DNA of 36,921 bases from Lewinellaceae bacterium (GTDB lineage Bacteria > Bacteroidota > Bacteroidia > Chitinophagales > Saprospiraceae): positions 1-36,921 of the forward strand of contig CANJPT010000037.1 of the NCBI GenBank assembly GCA_947476195.1, in the 5' to 3' direction. The notes below the pieces were generated by a model. That model saw only the letters and a program-made list of their open reading frames with translations. It did no database searches and was not told where the DNA came from. The stretch's first letter is position 1, and every line of letters begins with the position of its first letter. A program made the translations under genes and the position numbers. Positions 6,779 to 13,860 of the stretch are shown here, piece after piece.

Positions 6779-6953
6779 TGGTTATTAAGTCATTAAGTCA
6801 TTAGGTCATTGAGTCATTGGTCATTATGTCATTGGTCATTATGTCATTGGTCATTATGTCATTGGTCATTATGTCATTGGTCATTGTGTCATTGTGTCAT
6901 TGGTCATTGTGTCATTGGTCATTGTGTCATTGGTCATTGGTCATTGTGTCATT
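6774..6953. repeat. GTCATT tandem repeat field (left arm)
   Basis: About 22 copies of GTCATT (counted by eye) are spaced by one or two bases. The dominant 15-bp unit is GTCATTGGTCATTAT, later GTCATTGGTCATTGT. The first hexamer includes the lptG/F-like start codon (CAT on the plus strand). The field occupies the whole spacer upstream of that gene, where a promoter would be expected. Confidence 0.9.
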
Positions 6954-6973
6954 AAATCATCGGGGCGTTTACA

Positions 6974-7170
6974 AATGACTTAATGACTCTAAATGACCGA
7001 ATGACTCTAAATGACTGAATGACTCTAAATGACCCCAATGACTCTAAATGACCCAATGACTCTAAATGACCCAATGACTCTAAATGACCCCAATGACTCT
7101 AAATGACCCAATGACTCTAAATGACCCAATGACTCTAAATGACCCAATGACTCTAAATGACCCCAATGAC
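6974..7170. repeat. AATGAC tandem repeat field (right arm)
   Basis: Ten 18-19 bp units of the form AATGACTCTAAATGACCC, plus end hexamers, give about 22 AATGAC words. AATGAC is the reverse complement of GTCATT, so this field mirrors the one at 6774-6953 across a 20-base unique centre. It ends 5 bases before the DUF2480 stop codon. The frames that run through it are repeat artefacts. Confidence 0.9.
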
Positions 7171-7175
7171 TTAAT

Positions 7176-7700
7176 CTATACTTTTGCCCGCTTAAACACC
7201 GGCACCGTAGAACAAGGCTCGCCAAACATGATACTAAGCGCCACAGGTTGCAATTTTCGGGTGATCTCCAGGTAAGCAGAGGCCGGAACAGGCTTATCGC
7301 TGCAACCTTTAACCACGATGCGCTTGCCTTCGTATGGTTGCATATCAAGCGTAGCCAGCTTTTTCAGGAACGCTTTTTCAGCAAATTCTGCTGGCTCACC
7401 TAGTGCAATATCGTTCACATAAGGCGCTGCATGGGTAGCCACCAGCATATAGGCCCAAAGCGGAATGATCGCATCTGCAGAGCAAAATACAGCCAGGTTT
7501 TTCCCACGGTATTGTTCCCAGTCCAGTGCAAGCAGTGCCTCGCGAAAGTCCTTTTCTTTCAGGATCAACTCCATAAAAAGATAAGCTTTCAGGTCGAAAG
7601 GTACGATCTCACCTGGTGGGTACATTTCTTCCAGATCTAAAGTGACCAGGCTACTGCTTGCTATGCGGTTTATCAGCGGTTGTTCGAGTGTTGCTTCCAT
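7176..7700 (-). CDS. DUF2480 family protein
   Basis: A 174-residue soluble protein of the Bacteroidota-specific DUF2480 family. Visible family features are the N-terminal LINRIASSSLVTLDLEE segment, the PPGEIVPFDLKAYLFMELILKEKDFREAL block, WEQYRGKNLAVFCSADAIIPLWAYML in the middle, and a GCSDKPVPASAYLEITRKLQP block near the C-terminus. There is no signal peptide or membrane helix. Two conserved cysteines (CSADA and GCSDKPVP) are present. Function is unknown. It follows scpB by 45 bases with no terminator between them, so co-transcription is likely, and members of this family often sit in such housekeeping neighbourhoods. Its stop is directly bordered by the AATGAC repeat field. Confidence 0.85.
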   Translation of the reverse strand: MEATLEQPLINRIASSSLVTLDLEEMYPPGEIVPFDLKAYLFMELILKEKDFREALLALDWEQYRGKNLAVFCSADAIIPLWAYMLVATHAAPYVNDIALGEPAEFAEKAFLKKLATLDMQPYEGKRIVVKGCSDKPVPASAYLEITRKLQPVALSIMFGEPCSTVPVFKRAKV

Positions 7701-8684: not shown

Positions 8685-8733
8685 TCAGAAACCTGACTTT
8701 ATCAAAAAAATGTCCAACGGAACTTCTGACTTT
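8685..8733 (+). promoter_or_regulatory. Candidate LytTR-linked operator upstream of precursor peptide
   Basis: TCAGAAACCTGACTTT (8685-8700) recurs perfectly at 10764-10779 upstream of the LytTR gene. A second CTGACTTT lies at 8726-8733, 33 bases on, which is three helical turns in phase. LytTR regulators generally bind paired direct repeats, so this arrangement is plausible. Binding is inferred. Confidence 0.4.
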
Positions 8734-8794: not shown

Positions 8795-8989
8795 ATGGCA
8801 AAGGAAAAACTCAAACTTAAGGACCTTAAGGTACAAAGCATTGTTACTTCGCTTGAAGAAGGACAGATGCAGACCTTAAAAGGGGGGAAAGAAGTGGCAG
8901 GCCGTCGCCACACTTACACCACCCGTTGGACCATGGTTGACACCCGTGTTCAGTGTGACGGCGTAGTAGGCTTTCTCGGCGGCAATTAA
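8795..8989 (+). CDS. Putative RiPP precursor, pinensin-like double-glycine leader
   Basis: This is a 64-residue peptide. Residues 1-31 look like the leader of Bacteroidota class I lanthipeptide (pinensin-type) precursors: a lysine-rich start, the KLKLKDLKVQSIVTSL core, an acidic EEGQMQ and a Gly-Gly at 30-31 preceded by TLK. The remaining ~33 residues would be the core. It is rich in threonine (T40, T42, T43, T46, T50), contains two tryptophan/tyrosine aromatics and a single cysteine (C54), and ends GFLGGN. No LanB/LanC dehydratase or cyclase, protease-transporter or other maturation gene is in the window, so modification would need enzymes encoded elsewhere. Its stop codon overlaps the stop of the convergent 516-aa gene. 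The upstream region carries the 16-bp word shared with the LytTR gene. It could also be an unmodified bacteriocin-like or signalling peptide. Confidence 0.65.
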   Translation: MAKEKLKLKDLKVQSIVTSLEEGQMQTLKGGKEVAGRRHTYTTRWTMVDTRVQCDGVVGFLGGN

Positions 8990-10536
8990 GACTGCCTGGC
9001 TTCCATTTCGCGCAAATATTTTTCGCGCACCACCGTTGCAAATTGCTGACCTCTTGCCTTGGCATCCAGCCAGGACAAGAGGTCAAATGTTTGAAGCAAT
9101 GCCCTGGTTTCAGGCTCTTGCGCTTTAGCCTCCAGATCATTTTTTATCTTGGCAAAGATCTCGCGTTGGCCCCGGGCATCGGGCAATTTGATCGCTTCAA
9201 AGATGCCATGCATAAACCGCCGCTCCAATTCGTGCAGGCGGTTTTTCCTTTTTAAAAAGCGGGTGGAAGTGCGCAGTTGAGAATCCAGCAGTAAGAAATT
9301 TCCCAATTCAAAGTGGAGCAGCAAGGAGAGCATTCGGGCGAGGCTTTGCAGGTCTTCCCGGCCAAGGGTCCGGCGTTGGGCAAGCCAATGATTGAGGTGG
9401 TCGAGCGCCCTGTTAAAATCACCAAATCCGATGCAGATTGGCACAAACTGAAGATGAAAACTGCCCGTCTCGTAATCGCGCAGGTCGAAAACTTCTGCCT
9501 CAGCCAGACAGCGCTCCATTTCCAGTCGCCCCGCTCCAAAATCCCCTGTATACGTACACAAGGCAAAGAAAGTACTGAAATACTGCCGGTGGATTTTTCG
9601 ACGATCATCCTCTGTAATGGGTTGAAGATCACGTAGTTTTACCAGACAAGCCTGTACTTCTGAATACTTCTGTAAAAGGCCGCAAGCCAGGGCCTGGTTA
9701 CTCAGTGTAGCGATGTAGTCTGATAAATTTTCCCTCAAAAAATGAGGCTGAGACTCCTGCAGTGCGATGAGTATCTTGCCTGTTTCATAAAACTTTTCCG
9801 GCTCCAACGCAGTATGGTAGTAGAGGCTTAAGGTGCGGTAATATAGCACCCTTGCGGTATGCGATACCGCTGCATCCGGGTCGGAGAAGGCCTCCTGTTC
9901 CACGAGCTGGCGCAGCCTTGCAACCCGGTCTGAGCCACGCTGAAGGGGATCTTTTTTGATGGTCGTATACGCCTGAAAAAACGCCCTTCGATAATGAGCG
10001 GCATTCCGCAATTGCTCCATGGCTCGGGCCTCATCCTCTTGTAAACGCCCCAGGTTCTTGTGCAGAAAATCAACGTCCATCCGGGTGTAAGCAAGTTGCT
10101 TTTCCCATCGGACGATCTCAATTAAATGGGCAAAACTTTCATACTGTTTAGCAAGTTTTCGGGCCTTGCTTAGGAGCTCGCGACAATCCATATAATGCCC
10201 CCGCTTGAAAAGGACTGCTACGCTTTGGAGGAGATGGTTGAGCCGTTGCTGGATGGAGTGCAATTCATCGTAATTCTGGAGACATTTCAGGATCAGTTCG
10301 TAGAGATAGGCTTTTAATTCAGAGAATTTTTTACTGCCTATACTCTGACTTTTATAAATTATTGCCTTCCATTTCTCATCGTCAAATTGCTCAGTGGTGG
10401 CCAGGGCTTCGAATAATTGGGTGTACTTGGTATCCACTCCTGGTTTGCCATTCAAGAAAATGCGGAAATAACGCTTTTCGGTAGGTGAAAGCGAACGAAC
10501 CAGGCGATGCAATTTGTCAGAATACGTTTTGGACAT
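8986..10536 (-). CDS. Helical-repeat protein of unknown function
   Basis: A 516-residue cytosolic protein with no signal peptide or membrane helix. It begins MSKTYSDKLHRLVRSLSPTEKRYFRIFLN and then is almost wholly amphipathic helices with TPR-like spacing, for example LLSKARKLAKQYESFAHLIEIVRWEKQLAYTR, LQEDEARAMEQLRNA and YSEVQACLVKLRDL. I recognise similar hypothetical proteins in Saprospiria-like genomes but no named family. It is convergent with the RiPP-like precursor, the stop codons overlapping by two to three bases. It is divergent from the LytTR gene across a 260-base spacer, and a TGTGACTTTCA word lies about 40 bases before its start. The layout suggests that it belongs with the peptide and the regulator, perhaps as a peptide sensor or adaptor. 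That role is inference. Confidence 0.8.
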   Translation of the reverse strand: MSKTYSDKLHRLVRSLSPTEKRYFRIFLNGKPGVDTKYTQLFEALATTEQFDDEKWKAIIYKSQSIGSKKFSELKAYLYELILKCLQNYDELHSIQQRLNHLLQSVAVLFKRGHYMDCRELLSKARKLAKQYESFAHLIEIVRWEKQLAYTRMDVDFLHKNLGRLQEDEARAMEQLRNAAHYRRAFFQAYTTIKKDPLQRGSDRVARLRQLVEQEAFSDPDAAVSHTARVLYYRTLSLYYHTALEPEKFYETGKILIALQESQPHFLRENLSDYIATLSNQALACGLLQKYSEVQACLVKLRDLQPITEDDRRKIHRQYFSTFFALCTYTGDFGAGRLEMERCLAEAEVFDLRDYETGSFHLQFVPICIGFGDFNRALDHLNHWLAQRRTLGREDLQSLARMLSLLLHFELGNFLLLDSQLRTSTRFLKRKNRLHELERRFMHGIFEAIKLPDARGQREIFAKIKNDLEAKAQEPETRALLQTFDLLSWLDAKARGQQFATVVREKYLREMEARQS

Positions 10537-10763: not shown

Positions 10764-10779
10764 TCAGAAACCTGACTTT
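10764..10779 (+). promoter_or_regulatory. 16-bp word shared with precursor upstream region
   Basis: TCAGAAACCTGACTTT is identical to 8685-8700 and in both places is followed by an A-run. It lies 79 bases before the preferred LytTR start, consistent with autoregulation. Confidence 0.45.
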
Positions 10780-10858
10780 TAAAAAAAATAGAGTTGTGTG
10801 GATAATAGGGGGAATGGACTTTTGTCTCATCAAATCCAAAATCAAAAATGCTGCTGCC

Positions 10859-11314
10859 ATGTTAAACACTATCGTCGTTCGTCGCCGCCCCGAAATGGCA
10901 GAACCAAGCGCTTCACTTACCCGGTCTGTGCCTGTGAAGCATACCCAGGAGCTTGAGTTCGTAACACGTCCCGCCCCGGAAGCAGGAAAGATCGCCCTCC
11001 CAACCATGGAAGGCCTTTGTTTCGAAAAAGTAAAACACATTACTTATCTGGAAGCAAGCGGCAACTATACCGTCTTACACTTTAAAGACAAGCGACAGGT
11101 ATTGATCTGCAAAACCCTGCGTGAAGTGGAGCAAATGCTTTCTGATCGGGCTTTTGTACGGATCCATCGCTCACACACGATCCATTTGAAACATCTGAAA
11201 AAATATGTTCGCGGCAAAGGCGGCCAGGTGCTACTCCAAAACGGGGTGATGCTTACCGTTTCCACAGGCCAAAAGGAATCATTTCTGGCACATTTGAAGT
11301 GCTATTTTGGATGA
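10859..11314 (+). CDS. Stand-alone LytTR DNA-binding protein
   Basis: A 151-residue transcription regulator consisting of a ~50-residue unstructured N-terminus and one LytTR domain. The domain shows the family pattern: ITYLEASGNYTVLHFKD, then LICKTLREVEQML, FVRIHRSHTIHLKHLKKYVRGKGGQV and a final LTVSTGQKESFL. There is no receiver domain, so it is not a classic response regulator. The frame is open back to a GTG at 10796 and an ATG at 10814. I chose ATG 10859 because the upstream codons show no family similarity and because the 16-bp shared word at 10764-10779 would otherwise crowd the start. It is divergent from the 516-aa helical protein. A strong terminator lies about 200 bases downstream. 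Likely target: the shared TGACTTT sites here and before the precursor peptide. Confidence 0.85.
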   Translation: MLNTIVVRRRPEMAEPSASLTRSVPVKHTQELEFVTRPAPEAGKIALPTMEGLCFEKVKHITYLEASGNYTVLHFKDKRQVLICKTLREVEQMLSDRAFVRIHRSHTIHLKHLKKYVRGKGGQVLLQNGVMLTVSTGQKESFLAHLKCYFG

Positions 11315-11655: not shown

Positions 11656-13860
11656 ATGAACCTCGCCACCACAAACCTTACACGCCGCTATCCTGGCCTA
11701 CGCCCCTTCGAGCGTAGCCAAAGTGCTGTCTTTCGTGGCAGAGGCGAAGACATTACCAAACTTAGCAACCTAATTTTACGCGAACGTCTGGTGGTTTTGT
11801 TTGCAAAATCAGGCATGGGGAAAACCTCCTTGCTACAGGCTGGCTGTGCCCCGGAACTTGAGCGGCAGGATTTTGTCCCTATTTTCCTCCGCACAGAGCG
11901 AAGTGACCGCCCATTACTCGCTGGAATAAGCGAGATGCTGGAAAAAAATGTACATGTAGGAGGCACCGACCAAACCGGACTTCGGGTTGCGGCGCCTCAA
12001 ACCTTGTGGGAAAAAATGAAACGGCTGGAGTTTGATCTGGATGGCCTGCCAGCTACGCCTGTTTTAGTTTTTGATCAATTTGAAGAAGCTTACACGCTTT
12101 CTCATTCAGAAGAAAGCCGCCGTCAATTTTTTAGCGAGCTGGCTGATCTGGCCAATGATACCATGCCCGAGGCATTAAGGGCCACACTACTGGAACAGTT
12201 TAAATTAGGCAACCTATCGGTAGAAACGATGCAATGGTGGGAACAGCAACCCAACGTACGCATCGTGTTGAGCATTCGTTCTGATTTCTTACACTATATC
12301 GACCGGGTAAGCAAGAGCATCCCGGGTATCCTGCGCAACCGGTATGAACTGCAGGCCCTCGACCGTGAAAAGGCCCGAACTGCTATCGTGGAACCCGCCA
12401 TACAAGAGGGTACATACGCCAGTCAGACTTTTAGCTTTGTGCCAGCGGCTTTGGAAGAAATGCTGGATTTTCTTTCCGGCCATGATGCCACTACAGATGA
12501 AGAAGGTAAAGCCACAACCCGGGCCGAGGAAGTGGAGGTGGTCAACCTCCAGATCATTTGCCAGGATGTAGAGGAGCGCATTATAGATGCCCAAAAGCTA
12601 GCAAAATTTGAAGTAGACAGTCCTTTCTATGAAGGCAAAGAAGGACTGCGGAATTCAATTCGAAATTTCTATCAAAACCAACTCCAATTATTCCCCAAGG
12701 CTTATGTAGAGCGTATTTTACAAAAAACGCAGCAAGGCACTCCCATCACCGCACTTGACCAGGCCCTGACAGCCAAAACCGGAAAGGAACTCCATGATTT
12801 GGCTCAACGCCTTATGGAGGAAAGTCTGATTACCCCTGGGAACCGCCGCAATAGTGTCGTCGACGATACACTCATCAGCGATTATAAGGTTTCACCAGAC
12901 TTTCTCGACACCTTGGTAGACAAGAGTCGCCTGCTGCGGAAGGAACCCCGACTGGACGATTTTTATTACGAGATCAGCCACGATACGCTTCTGCCTGCAG
13001 TGATTGAATCACGCAATACGCGCCGCGATAGAGAACAGACTGACCGCCAAAAAGCCGAATACCAAACGCAATTGGCAGAGGAGGCCAAACGTCGGGAAGC
13101 AGTGGAGGCCGAATTAAAAGCGACCCTTCGCCAGCGCAAACTGGCTCGTACCGTAGCAATTACCTCGTTTATTTCTTTGCTGGTTAGCCTTGCATTTGGA
13201 GGTTGGTTCATCAAAGAATATGTTGATAATACACGAAGTCAACTCGATCAGGCCGAGTTTTATGTGCACAATGAGCTCTTCAACGCCGCAGATATTACTT
13301 ATGATATCCTATTAAAGCACCCCAACCGATGCTGGGTTTTGGCCAATTTTAACCCCAATAAAATTATCGCAGATGAATTTAAGATCGTAAACCAGTTCCA
13401 AAAAGGCTTTGTTGCGGTGGATAGCAATTTTATAATTGCAGATTCTCTGATGCTGGCAAACAACTACGCGCTGGCCTTGAACTGCTATCGGCTGGCCGAA
13501 GATTCCTTAAATGCGTATCGCTTGCTAAATGCAAAATACTCCGATGACACCTTGCAAAACGATTGGCGTATTCAACCCCAAATCATAGATAAAAAAGCCG
13601 ATCTGATTCAACAACGTATTATAAACGCCAGATTGACCCTCGCACGTGAGTTCAAGATTAGTCAGCGTGAATATGAATCTTTTCTGGAAGCCAAGGTCTG
13701 GGGCCAGGCTCTGCGTAATCTACGGCGCATGAAACAGCTCCTGCCTGCCCATCCTGCTGATGAAGCTGATTTGCAAATTGCGCTGAAGATCCGTGGACGG
13801 CCTAGTGATTATGTTAAAAAGGAGCTTGAAAAATATGAGGCGCGGGTTTTAGGCTTGTAG
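11656..13860 (+). CDS. STAND-type ATPase with membrane anchor
   Basis: This is a 734-residue protein. The N-terminus RYPGLRPFERSQSAVFRGR and Walker A loop FAKSGMGKTSLL (about residues 49-60; the first glycine of the P-loop is alanine) mark the nSTAND1 class of AAA+/NACHT-like signalling ATPases. The Walker B is PVLVFDQFEE near 136-146. The winged-helix region (about 380-445) ends in YYEISHDTLLPAVIESR, typical of the class. A charged coiled coil (about 450-495) leads into one transmembrane helix (about 496-519), then a C-terminal helical region (AEFYVHNELFNAADITYDILLKHP) like TPRs. Most relatives carry WD40 or TPR sensors, and no recognised effector domain (TIR, nuclease, protease, caspase-like) is present here. 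It may be a membrane-signalling or defence protein. It stands alone, between a terminator and a separately promoted gene. Confidence 0.75.
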   Translation: MNLATTNLTRRYPGLRPFERSQSAVFRGRGEDITKLSNLILRERLVVLFAKSGMGKTSLLQAGCAPELERQDFVPIFLRTERSDRPLLAGISEMLEKNVHVGGTDQTGLRVAAPQTLWEKMKRLEFDLDGLPATPVLVFDQFEEAYTLSHSEESRRQFFSELADLANDTMPEALRATLLEQFKLGNLSVETMQWWEQQPNVRIVLSIRSDFLHYIDRVSKSIPGILRNRYELQALDREKARTAIVEPAIQEGTYASQTFSFVPAALEEMLDFLSGHDATTDEEGKATTRAEEVEVVNLQIICQDVEERIIDAQKLAKFEVDSPFYEGKEGLRNSIRNFYQNQLQLFPKAYVERILQKTQQGTPITALDQALTAKTGKELHDLAQRLMEESLITPGNRRNSVVDDTLISDYKVSPDFLDTLVDKSRLLRKEPRLDDFYYEISHDTLLPAVIESRNTRRDREQTDRQKAEYQTQLAEEAKRREAVEAELKATLRQRKLARTVAITSFISLLVSLAFGGWFIKEYVDNTRSQLDQAEFYVHNELFNAADITYDILLKHPNRCWVLANFNPNKIIADEFKIVNQFQKGFVAVDSNFIIADSLMLANNYALALNCYRLAEDSLNAYRLLNAKYSDDTLQNDWRIQPQIIDKKADLIQQRIINARLTLAREFKISQREYESFLEAKVWGQALRNLRRMKQLLPAHPADEADLQIALKIRGRPSDYVKKELEKYEARVLGL

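Follow-up and report, generated by a model that had tools for sequence, protein, structure and literature searches.

A double-glycine peptide gene paired with a TPR-like protein across Saprospirales: a candidate self-inducing peptide signal in Bacteroidota

The window, by which we mean the whole analyzed stretch of 36,921 nucleotides from a Lewinellaceae bacterium, carries a short peptide gene that converges on the gene of a larger protein, here called F0, from which a LytTR gene diverges. The earlier note on this DNA had described these neighbors as a large helical protein and a LytTR regulator, and both the 516-aa helical protein and the LytTR protein were confirmed. The features of the locus are the following.

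8689..8709, + strand: DNA element AAACCTGACTTT-N4-AAAAA, exact match, 85 bp before the peptide ATG
8795..8989, + strand: peptide gene, 64 aa, established from the ORF list, the leader match and homologues
8795-8887, + strand: leader of the peptide, with the Gly-Gly codons at 8882-8887
8888-8986, + strand: part of the peptide after Gly-Gly
8900..8947, + strand: conserved core GRRHTYTTRWTMVDTR, defined by the family alignment and pN/pS
8927-8947, + strand: family-wide heptad W45-R51, inside the conserved core
8986..10536, - strand: F0, 516-aa all-helical TPR-like protein, proposed receptor/regulator, convergent with the peptide gene
10768..10788, + strand: another exact copy of the same element, in the F0/LytTR intergenic region, upstream of the LytTR gene
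10859..11314, + strand: LytTR DNA-binding-domain protein, 151 aa, accessory member, divergent from F0

The peptide gene, whose end overlaps the convergent F0 gene by 4 bases, encodes 64 residues with Gly-Gly at positions 30-31, followed by five threonines and one cysteine, just as the earlier note had read it. Its description of the leader as pinensin-type also holds: residues 5-31 match the NCBIfam model leader_pinensin (NF038180) with 40.5 bits (E 1.8e-10; cut-off 24), and a search of the 4.76-Mb assembly with this leader model returned the window peptide as the sole match above the cut-off. The leader also matches the rSAM-RiPP family TIGR04149 with a score below the cut-off. In PMC7268733, Bacteroidetes class I precursors are characterized by an LxLxKx5L leader motif, with many leaders terminated by GG and a C39 protease gene often located nearby; the window leader resembles these leaders in sequence.

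The pattern of substitutions indicates a real gene under selection. Pooled pN/pS is 0.176 in the leader, 0.094 in the core and 0.507 in the tail across 18 genus pairs, which partly overlap, and seven independent pairs give 0.183, 0.078 and 0.634, respectively; this pattern implies that the peptide gene is translated and that the core is its most constrained part. An alignment of 30 peptides, 28 of them from the genus, shows the segment GRRx2YRTRWTxVDTR held after Gly-Gly and a variable tail. Across the wider family of 77 peptides, in which precursors range from 64 to 87 aa, the heptad Wx2[VIL][DE]xR is found in 58 (for instance, WDDVEIR, WTSVDTR, WTMIDTR and WEGVDVR) and is missing or altered in 19, as in WTEVKSG, WIADTIVDIR and WDEITIR, or in L271, which has no Trp. 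When 73 peptides were compared, after exclusion of the Trp-less peptide and of F0 fragments that were too short, and with leaders aligned ungapped, heptad identity exceeded that of the leader, linker and tail in each of four bins of F0 distance. For instance, at an F0 identity of 0.4-0.5, the heptad reached 0.40 versus 0.21 for the leader, 0.10 for the linker and 0.07 for the tail. The anchoring Trp by itself guarantees a heptad identity of one seventh, and the heptad value is 0.30 when it is left out (calculated by hand).

Other traits of the precursor are distributed differently. Gly-Gly is kept across the 77 peptides (as Ala-Gly in one), a pair of residues that also helped to select them. 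The leader type varies outside the genus, with two of seven relatives passing the pinensin cut-off and five falling below it, as do all three further relatives. The single-cysteine core pointed out in the earlier note is present in the window copy and is not typical of the family, given that a Cys follows Gly-Gly in only two of the 77 members, the window copy included. The NF038180 model would label many such precursors as lanthipeptides, and nearly all of them have no Cys after Gly-Gly.

Our Pfam scan of 27 window ORFs, the peptide included, found no lanthionine, LanB, ATP-grasp or radical SAM gene, in agreement with the earlier remark that no maturation enzyme lies nearby, and none of the protein families recurring beside the peptide-F0 cassette looked like a maturation enzyme when their sequences were inspected. 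The window genome as a whole contains 16 radical SAM matches. Wider searches for LanC and a C39 transporter had been proposed as a check. LanC is absent from the window genome (G000) and from 20 of the 26 genus genomes tested, G000 included, and a LanC-type gene occurs elsewhere in the other six. A C39 domain is encoded in the window genome, as in all 26, but also in all eight genus genomes that have no cassette; its presence does not follow that of the cassette, and a cassette-specific C39 exporter was therefore rejected. The orphan lanthipeptide-like products considered earlier are likewise not supported, because the genome has no LanC, 75 of the 77 members have no Cys after Gly-Gly and the core is conserved more than the leader, a pattern that the earlier note had itself set in advance as evidence against its proposal.

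The label of orphan does not survive either, because the peptide gene has a near-obligate partner. The leader model gave one match above its cut-off in 32 of 42 genus genomes, all 32 of which have an F0 orthologue, and it missed G005 and G010, where F0 is accompanied by a divergent peptide and by a contig-edge peptide, respectively. The genus tally is 34 genomes with both genes, eight with neither and none with only one, where the peptide was sought in those eight by the leader model only and four of them (G015, G018, G036 and G040) are less than 90% complete. Seven of the eight show neither gene, and G040 has partial matches to F0 paralogues only.

At the level of the order, two degenerate patterns taken from an F0 profile were run against 84,980 species genomes, and the best 80 of 86 relatives were kept. 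Their titles, where a group is given, read Saprospiraceae, Saprospirales, Chitinophagales, Bacteroidota or Bacteroidetes. Named carriers are Phaeodactylibacter luteus KCTC 42180, P. xiamenensis KD52 and Lewinella cohaerens DSM 23179, and for the latter two the NCBI taxonomy gives Saprospirales, families Haliscomenobacteraceae and Lewinellaceae. Once the window and two further loci are added, the set holds 79 distinct F0 orthologues with room for a peptide and three more without room (at least 400 bits; the 23 sequences behind the orthologue profile lie partly within the scored set). A convergent peptide lies beside 77 of these 79 orthologues in Saprospirales. An automatic rule, which asks for a convergent ORF of 50-100 aa with [KTR]GG within 600 bp, finds 73 of them (a stricter rule gives 62 of the 79), and four were recognized by eye: L232 and L235 (genomes G030 and G032, both missed by the start rule), L269 (AG for GG) and L260. 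The two exceptions are L273, beside which no peptide was seen, and L280 (genome G052), whose peptide is on another contig.

Control placements yielded little: one of the 79 orthologues has such an ORF downstream on the same strand, and two of the 79 orthologues and one of the 38 paralogues have one upstream of F0. By the automatic rule, complemented by ORF lists read by eye for 18, none of the 38 paralogues has a qualifying convergent peptide, and the idea that they form further peptide-receptor pairs was set aside. The genes flanking the cassette differ between lineages and the pair itself is kept; thus, synteny alone does not explain the pairing.

The F0-like (BT2802-like) family is large, with at least 15 matches each in G068, G086 and G099 (some proteins were counted twice), and paralogues such as L101-L134 have no peptide where examined. 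An F0-like protein of G070, a genome from another family, was rejected as an orthologue, since an independent profile (224.9 bits) identifies it as a paralogue. The same genome has four pinensin-leader matches, and the three that were read (L059, L060 and L061) have Cys-containing cores and may be true lanthipeptide precursors; one G070 contig with a pinensin-leader match also carries an F0 paralogue.

The AlphaFold2 model of F0 is all-helical, with a pLDDT of 87.6 and a pTM of 0.81. In a second-look structural alignment against 961 Foldseek-ranked chains, the first 12 rows are Rap or NprR proteins (Z 17.1-19.2), led by the RapJ-type structure 4gyo (Z 19.2, rmsd 4.9, 308 aligned positions, F0 residues 126-514) and including NprR 5dbk (Z 17.9), while the TPR protein LGN follows at Z 16.8, tied with the lowest Rap/NprR rows; Z-scores are easily inflated for helical repeats, and the comparison concerns the F0 model, with the paralogues outside it. 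Foldseek itself gave no match of the model to the PDB with E below 0.001, and its ranking mixes many TPR proteins. A profile search of PDB sequences with F0 returned weak matches to kinesin light chain and to the TPRs of GPSM2. Pfam TPR models match up to eight of 23 F0 orthologues weakly (best 9.8e-7), and at E values up to 0.1 none of them matches window F0.

F0 matches the NCBIfam BT_2802 family (NF058569), named for ribose utilization, over its full length with 120 bits against a cut-off of 550, and, judged by sequence, it is a distant relative only. The BT2802 protein is, we assume, RusR. According to PMC12596196, RusR is the regulator of the ribose scavenging genes BT2803-2809 in B. thetaiotaomicron. 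Sequence and fold searches recognized no DNA-binding domain or HTH in the N-terminal 130 residues of F0; as a candidate for a known DNA-binding fold, this region gave uninformative Foldseek and VIA-align matches (best Z 4.8), an outcome that excludes no family. Of 27 F0 positions conserved specifically in the orthologues, nine fall in residues 301-400 and eight in residues 1-95.

A shared motif, GAAACCTGACTTTT..AAAA, recurs upstream of the peptide genes of the genus. The window genome has only two exact matches to the long motif AAACCTGACTTTN4AAAAA, one upstream of the peptide gene and the other upstream of the LytTR gene. G007 and G009 each have a single exact match, which sits outside the locus, in front of the gene of a secreted protein, and both of their locus sites carry one mismatch. 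Only close matches carry weight, because the hits obtained when two mismatches are allowed often exceed those of a reversed-pattern control only slightly (12 versus 8 in the window genome). With up to two mismatches, the peptide-side element is found in 23 of 28 loci and never in shuffles; the LytTR-side element is found in 14 of 31 loci, with a mean of 2.7 mismatches versus 6.9 in shuffles.

The association also extends beyond the genus. CTGAYTT occurs within 200 bp upstream of 70 of the 77 peptide genes, compared with about 2.7 expected from shuffles and four on the opposite strand. By group, it is present in 27 of 31 genus loci, in 20 of 21 other loci with LytTR (one is too short to tell) and in 23 of 25 other loci without LytTR, with shuffles giving about one in each group and the opposite strand 1, 0 and 3. 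In most loci its distance to the ATG is approximately 80-125 bp, and it precedes TGGTTTG-like and TATATTTA-like boxes that we take to resemble the -33/-7 promoter boxes of Bacteroidota. The G052 peptide, located on another contig than F0, retains the element, and four pinensin-leader-like peptides away from F0 orthologues do not have it (the leader of one, L058, is just under the cut-off).

Close element matches are also found near the gene of a GWxTD-domain-like protein and near secreted proteins with T9SS sorting tails, one above and one below the Pfam cut-off. The GWxTD gene has the element with up to two mismatches in 10 of 20 cassette-positive versus one of eight cassette-negative genomes, a count that excludes G020 (represented by fragments only), G026 (where the orthologue was not found) and the second of the G040 fragments and that takes G042, G050 and G056, whose peptides are present, as cassette-positive (10/20 instead of 10/17). 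The corresponding site of the window genome has two mismatches, and we consider this gene a weak candidate target of the element. A stricter element pattern gave 14 sites in nine of 22 genomes, and several of these sites are at the cassette. Most family sites escape this pattern, both of those in the window genome included, and its absences say little. As for the proteins themselves, the GWxTD-domain-like protein at L155:2827-4296 and those at L149, L151 and L152 score below the Pfam cut-off. L147, L148 and L154 encode proteins of 115-126 aa, beside close element matches, with signal-like N-termini and a shared IEHxxxKxxxxPFKFRLGS near the C-terminus.

The LytTR protein of the window has no receiver domain, and no kinase was found among the window ORFs scanned. 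The most plausible start of this protein is ATG 10859, which agrees with the starts of its relatives; a longer GTG frame is listed from 10796 and contains, at 10816, what is presumably a -7-like box. In the wider set, LytTR lies beside F0 in 47 of 72 loci and was not detected in 25, and the idea of a three-gene unit with LytTR as an essential partner was rejected on this basis. Because CTGAYTT persists in nearly all loci without LytTR, LytTR is not the sole candidate binder and F0 is the simpler candidate at the promoter; LytTR seems to be a co-regulated addition to the pair. The LytTR gene is immediately followed by an nSTAND1-type NTPase gene (11656-13860, + strand), and five close relatives, or their cut contigs, have a homologue (family F5) after LytTR as well. 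Upstream in the window, positions 6809-7180 hold short tandem repeats between LptF/G and DUF2480 genes, with repetitive ORFs on both strands.

Taken together, the pairing, the selection pattern, the promoter element and the receptor-like fold fit a self-inducing peptide signal acting on F0. The peptide is one half of a conserved gene pair with the regulator-like F0 and is probably a signal that induces its own production. Of the options given earlier, the last, a signal peptide (presumably unmodified) whose neighbors suggested signaling, is the one that now draws support from the pairing with F0, from the fold of F0 and from the shared DNA element. As a specific model, a two-gene, self-inducing system of peptide signal and TPR receptor/regulator, RRNPP-like but in Bacteroidota, has in our view an even chance of being correct. 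A PCAT-type C39 transporter resident in the genome would most probably cleave its precursor, made of a double-glycine leader and a constrained core, at Gly-Gly, and the released peptide, of about 30-40 aa, would be the ligand of F0. The peptide would be exported and might then re-enter the Gram-negative cell, or it might act intracellularly. F0, by itself or jointly with LytTR in the loci that have it, may act as the putative binder of the CTGACTTTT element, whose presence at both the peptide and the LytTR promoters would create a self-inducing loop, assuming activation rather than repression. In some genomes, the loop may extend to the GWxTD-domain protein and to secreted proteins. We hold more tentatively, at somewhat below even, the broader proposal that this is a Bacteroidota form of peptide-pheromone quorum sensing across Saprospirales, with a double-glycine peptide, a largely fixed Wx2VDxR core and a TPR regulator of the BT2802 kind, independent of or very distant from the Bacillota RRNPP receptors.

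Other readings of the same pair must be weighed against a signal. The peptide could be a small protein that is never exported and binds F0 as an adaptor or feedback inhibitor, its KGG being a cut site or a hinge inherited from a leader-like ancestor. This would account for C39 domains that do not track with the cassette and for the purifying selection acting on the leader itself, and the element would allow a feedback loop without export. However, Gly-Gly is kept in 77 peptides (in part as a selection criterion) while the leader type shifts, as expected for an exporter cleavage site, and the tail evolves nearly freely, unlike that of a small folded protein, which leaves us regarding this explanation as rather unlikely.

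It is still less probable, in our judgment, that the peptide is a RiPP natural product whose core is modified by enzymes encoded elsewhere, such as radical SAM or ATP-grasp enzymes, that act on Trp, Tyr, Thr or Asp, with F0 and LytTR only as regulators. In favor of this reading are the membership of the leader in a family of class I lanthipeptide leaders and its score, although below the cut-off, in an rSAM-RiPP family, as well as the radical SAM matches of the genome, the LanC-type genes of six genus genomes and the conserved Trp and Thr, which might be modified. Against this stand the lack of a maturation enzyme among the window ORFs scanned and in the families recurring beside the cassette, the general absence of Cys after Gly-Gly and a constrained core, which fits a recognized signal better than a diversifying toxin. 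Finally, F0 might serve the peptide as a chaperone, an RRE-like recognition protein or an immunity protein rather than as a receptor, since TPR proteins bind peptides in many contexts and near 1:1 pairing fits any dedicated binder; we consider this very improbable, as the nearest named family concerns ribose utilization and holds what we take to be the regulator RusR, and the shared promoter element points to regulation.

To our knowledge, peptide quorum sensing has not been established in Bacteroidota. The literature matches listed, a non-exhaustive set, contained neither peptide quorum sensing of this kind in Bacteroidota nor the pairing of such a peptide with F0, and the RRNPP peptide-receptor systems described in PMC10075063 and PMC9765709 belong to Bacillota and their mobile elements. 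If the proposed signal acting on F0 is correct, it would provide a defined set of ligand, receptor and promoter that is testable in Phaeodactylibacter luteus, P. xiamenensis and Lewinella cohaerens, and it would suggest a type of ligand for part of a large, unstudied F0-like family. It would also mean that automatic names such as "pinensin family lanthipeptide" can hide signaling peptides.

Several known systems share some of these traits. Peptide signaling of the Agr/ComDE type is LytTR-based, and its ComC is a double-glycine peptide. The cassette resembles it in its double-glycine peptide and in the LytTR protein of part of the loci, and differs from it in that the window LytTR protein has no receiver domain, no kinase lies among the scanned ORFs and LytTR escaped detection in about a third of the loci. 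With the pinensin class I lanthipeptides (NF038180), the window copy and part of its relatives share the leader, whereas many orthologous precursor leaders fall under the family cut-off, the core is constrained without a conserved Cys, the genome has no LanC and the partner is F0. The BT2802 family (NF058569) is similar to F0 over the full length, yet F0 stays far under its cut-off. The RRNPP(A) systems of Bacillota (Rap-Phr, NprR-NprX and PlcR-PapR) differ from the cassette, which is found in Bacteroidota in a convergent gene order, combines a peptide bearing a double-glycine lanthipeptide-type leader with an F0 nearest in sequence to the BT2802 family, shows no recognized HTH and involves a putative peptide-F0 binding. 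Rap proteins, for their part, have no HTH DNA-binding domain. As in RRNPP systems, a propeptide gene adjoins the gene of a TPR-like protein in nearly every locus; Rap and NprR structures head the second-look alignment for the F0 model, and the element suggests a peptide promoter under its own control.
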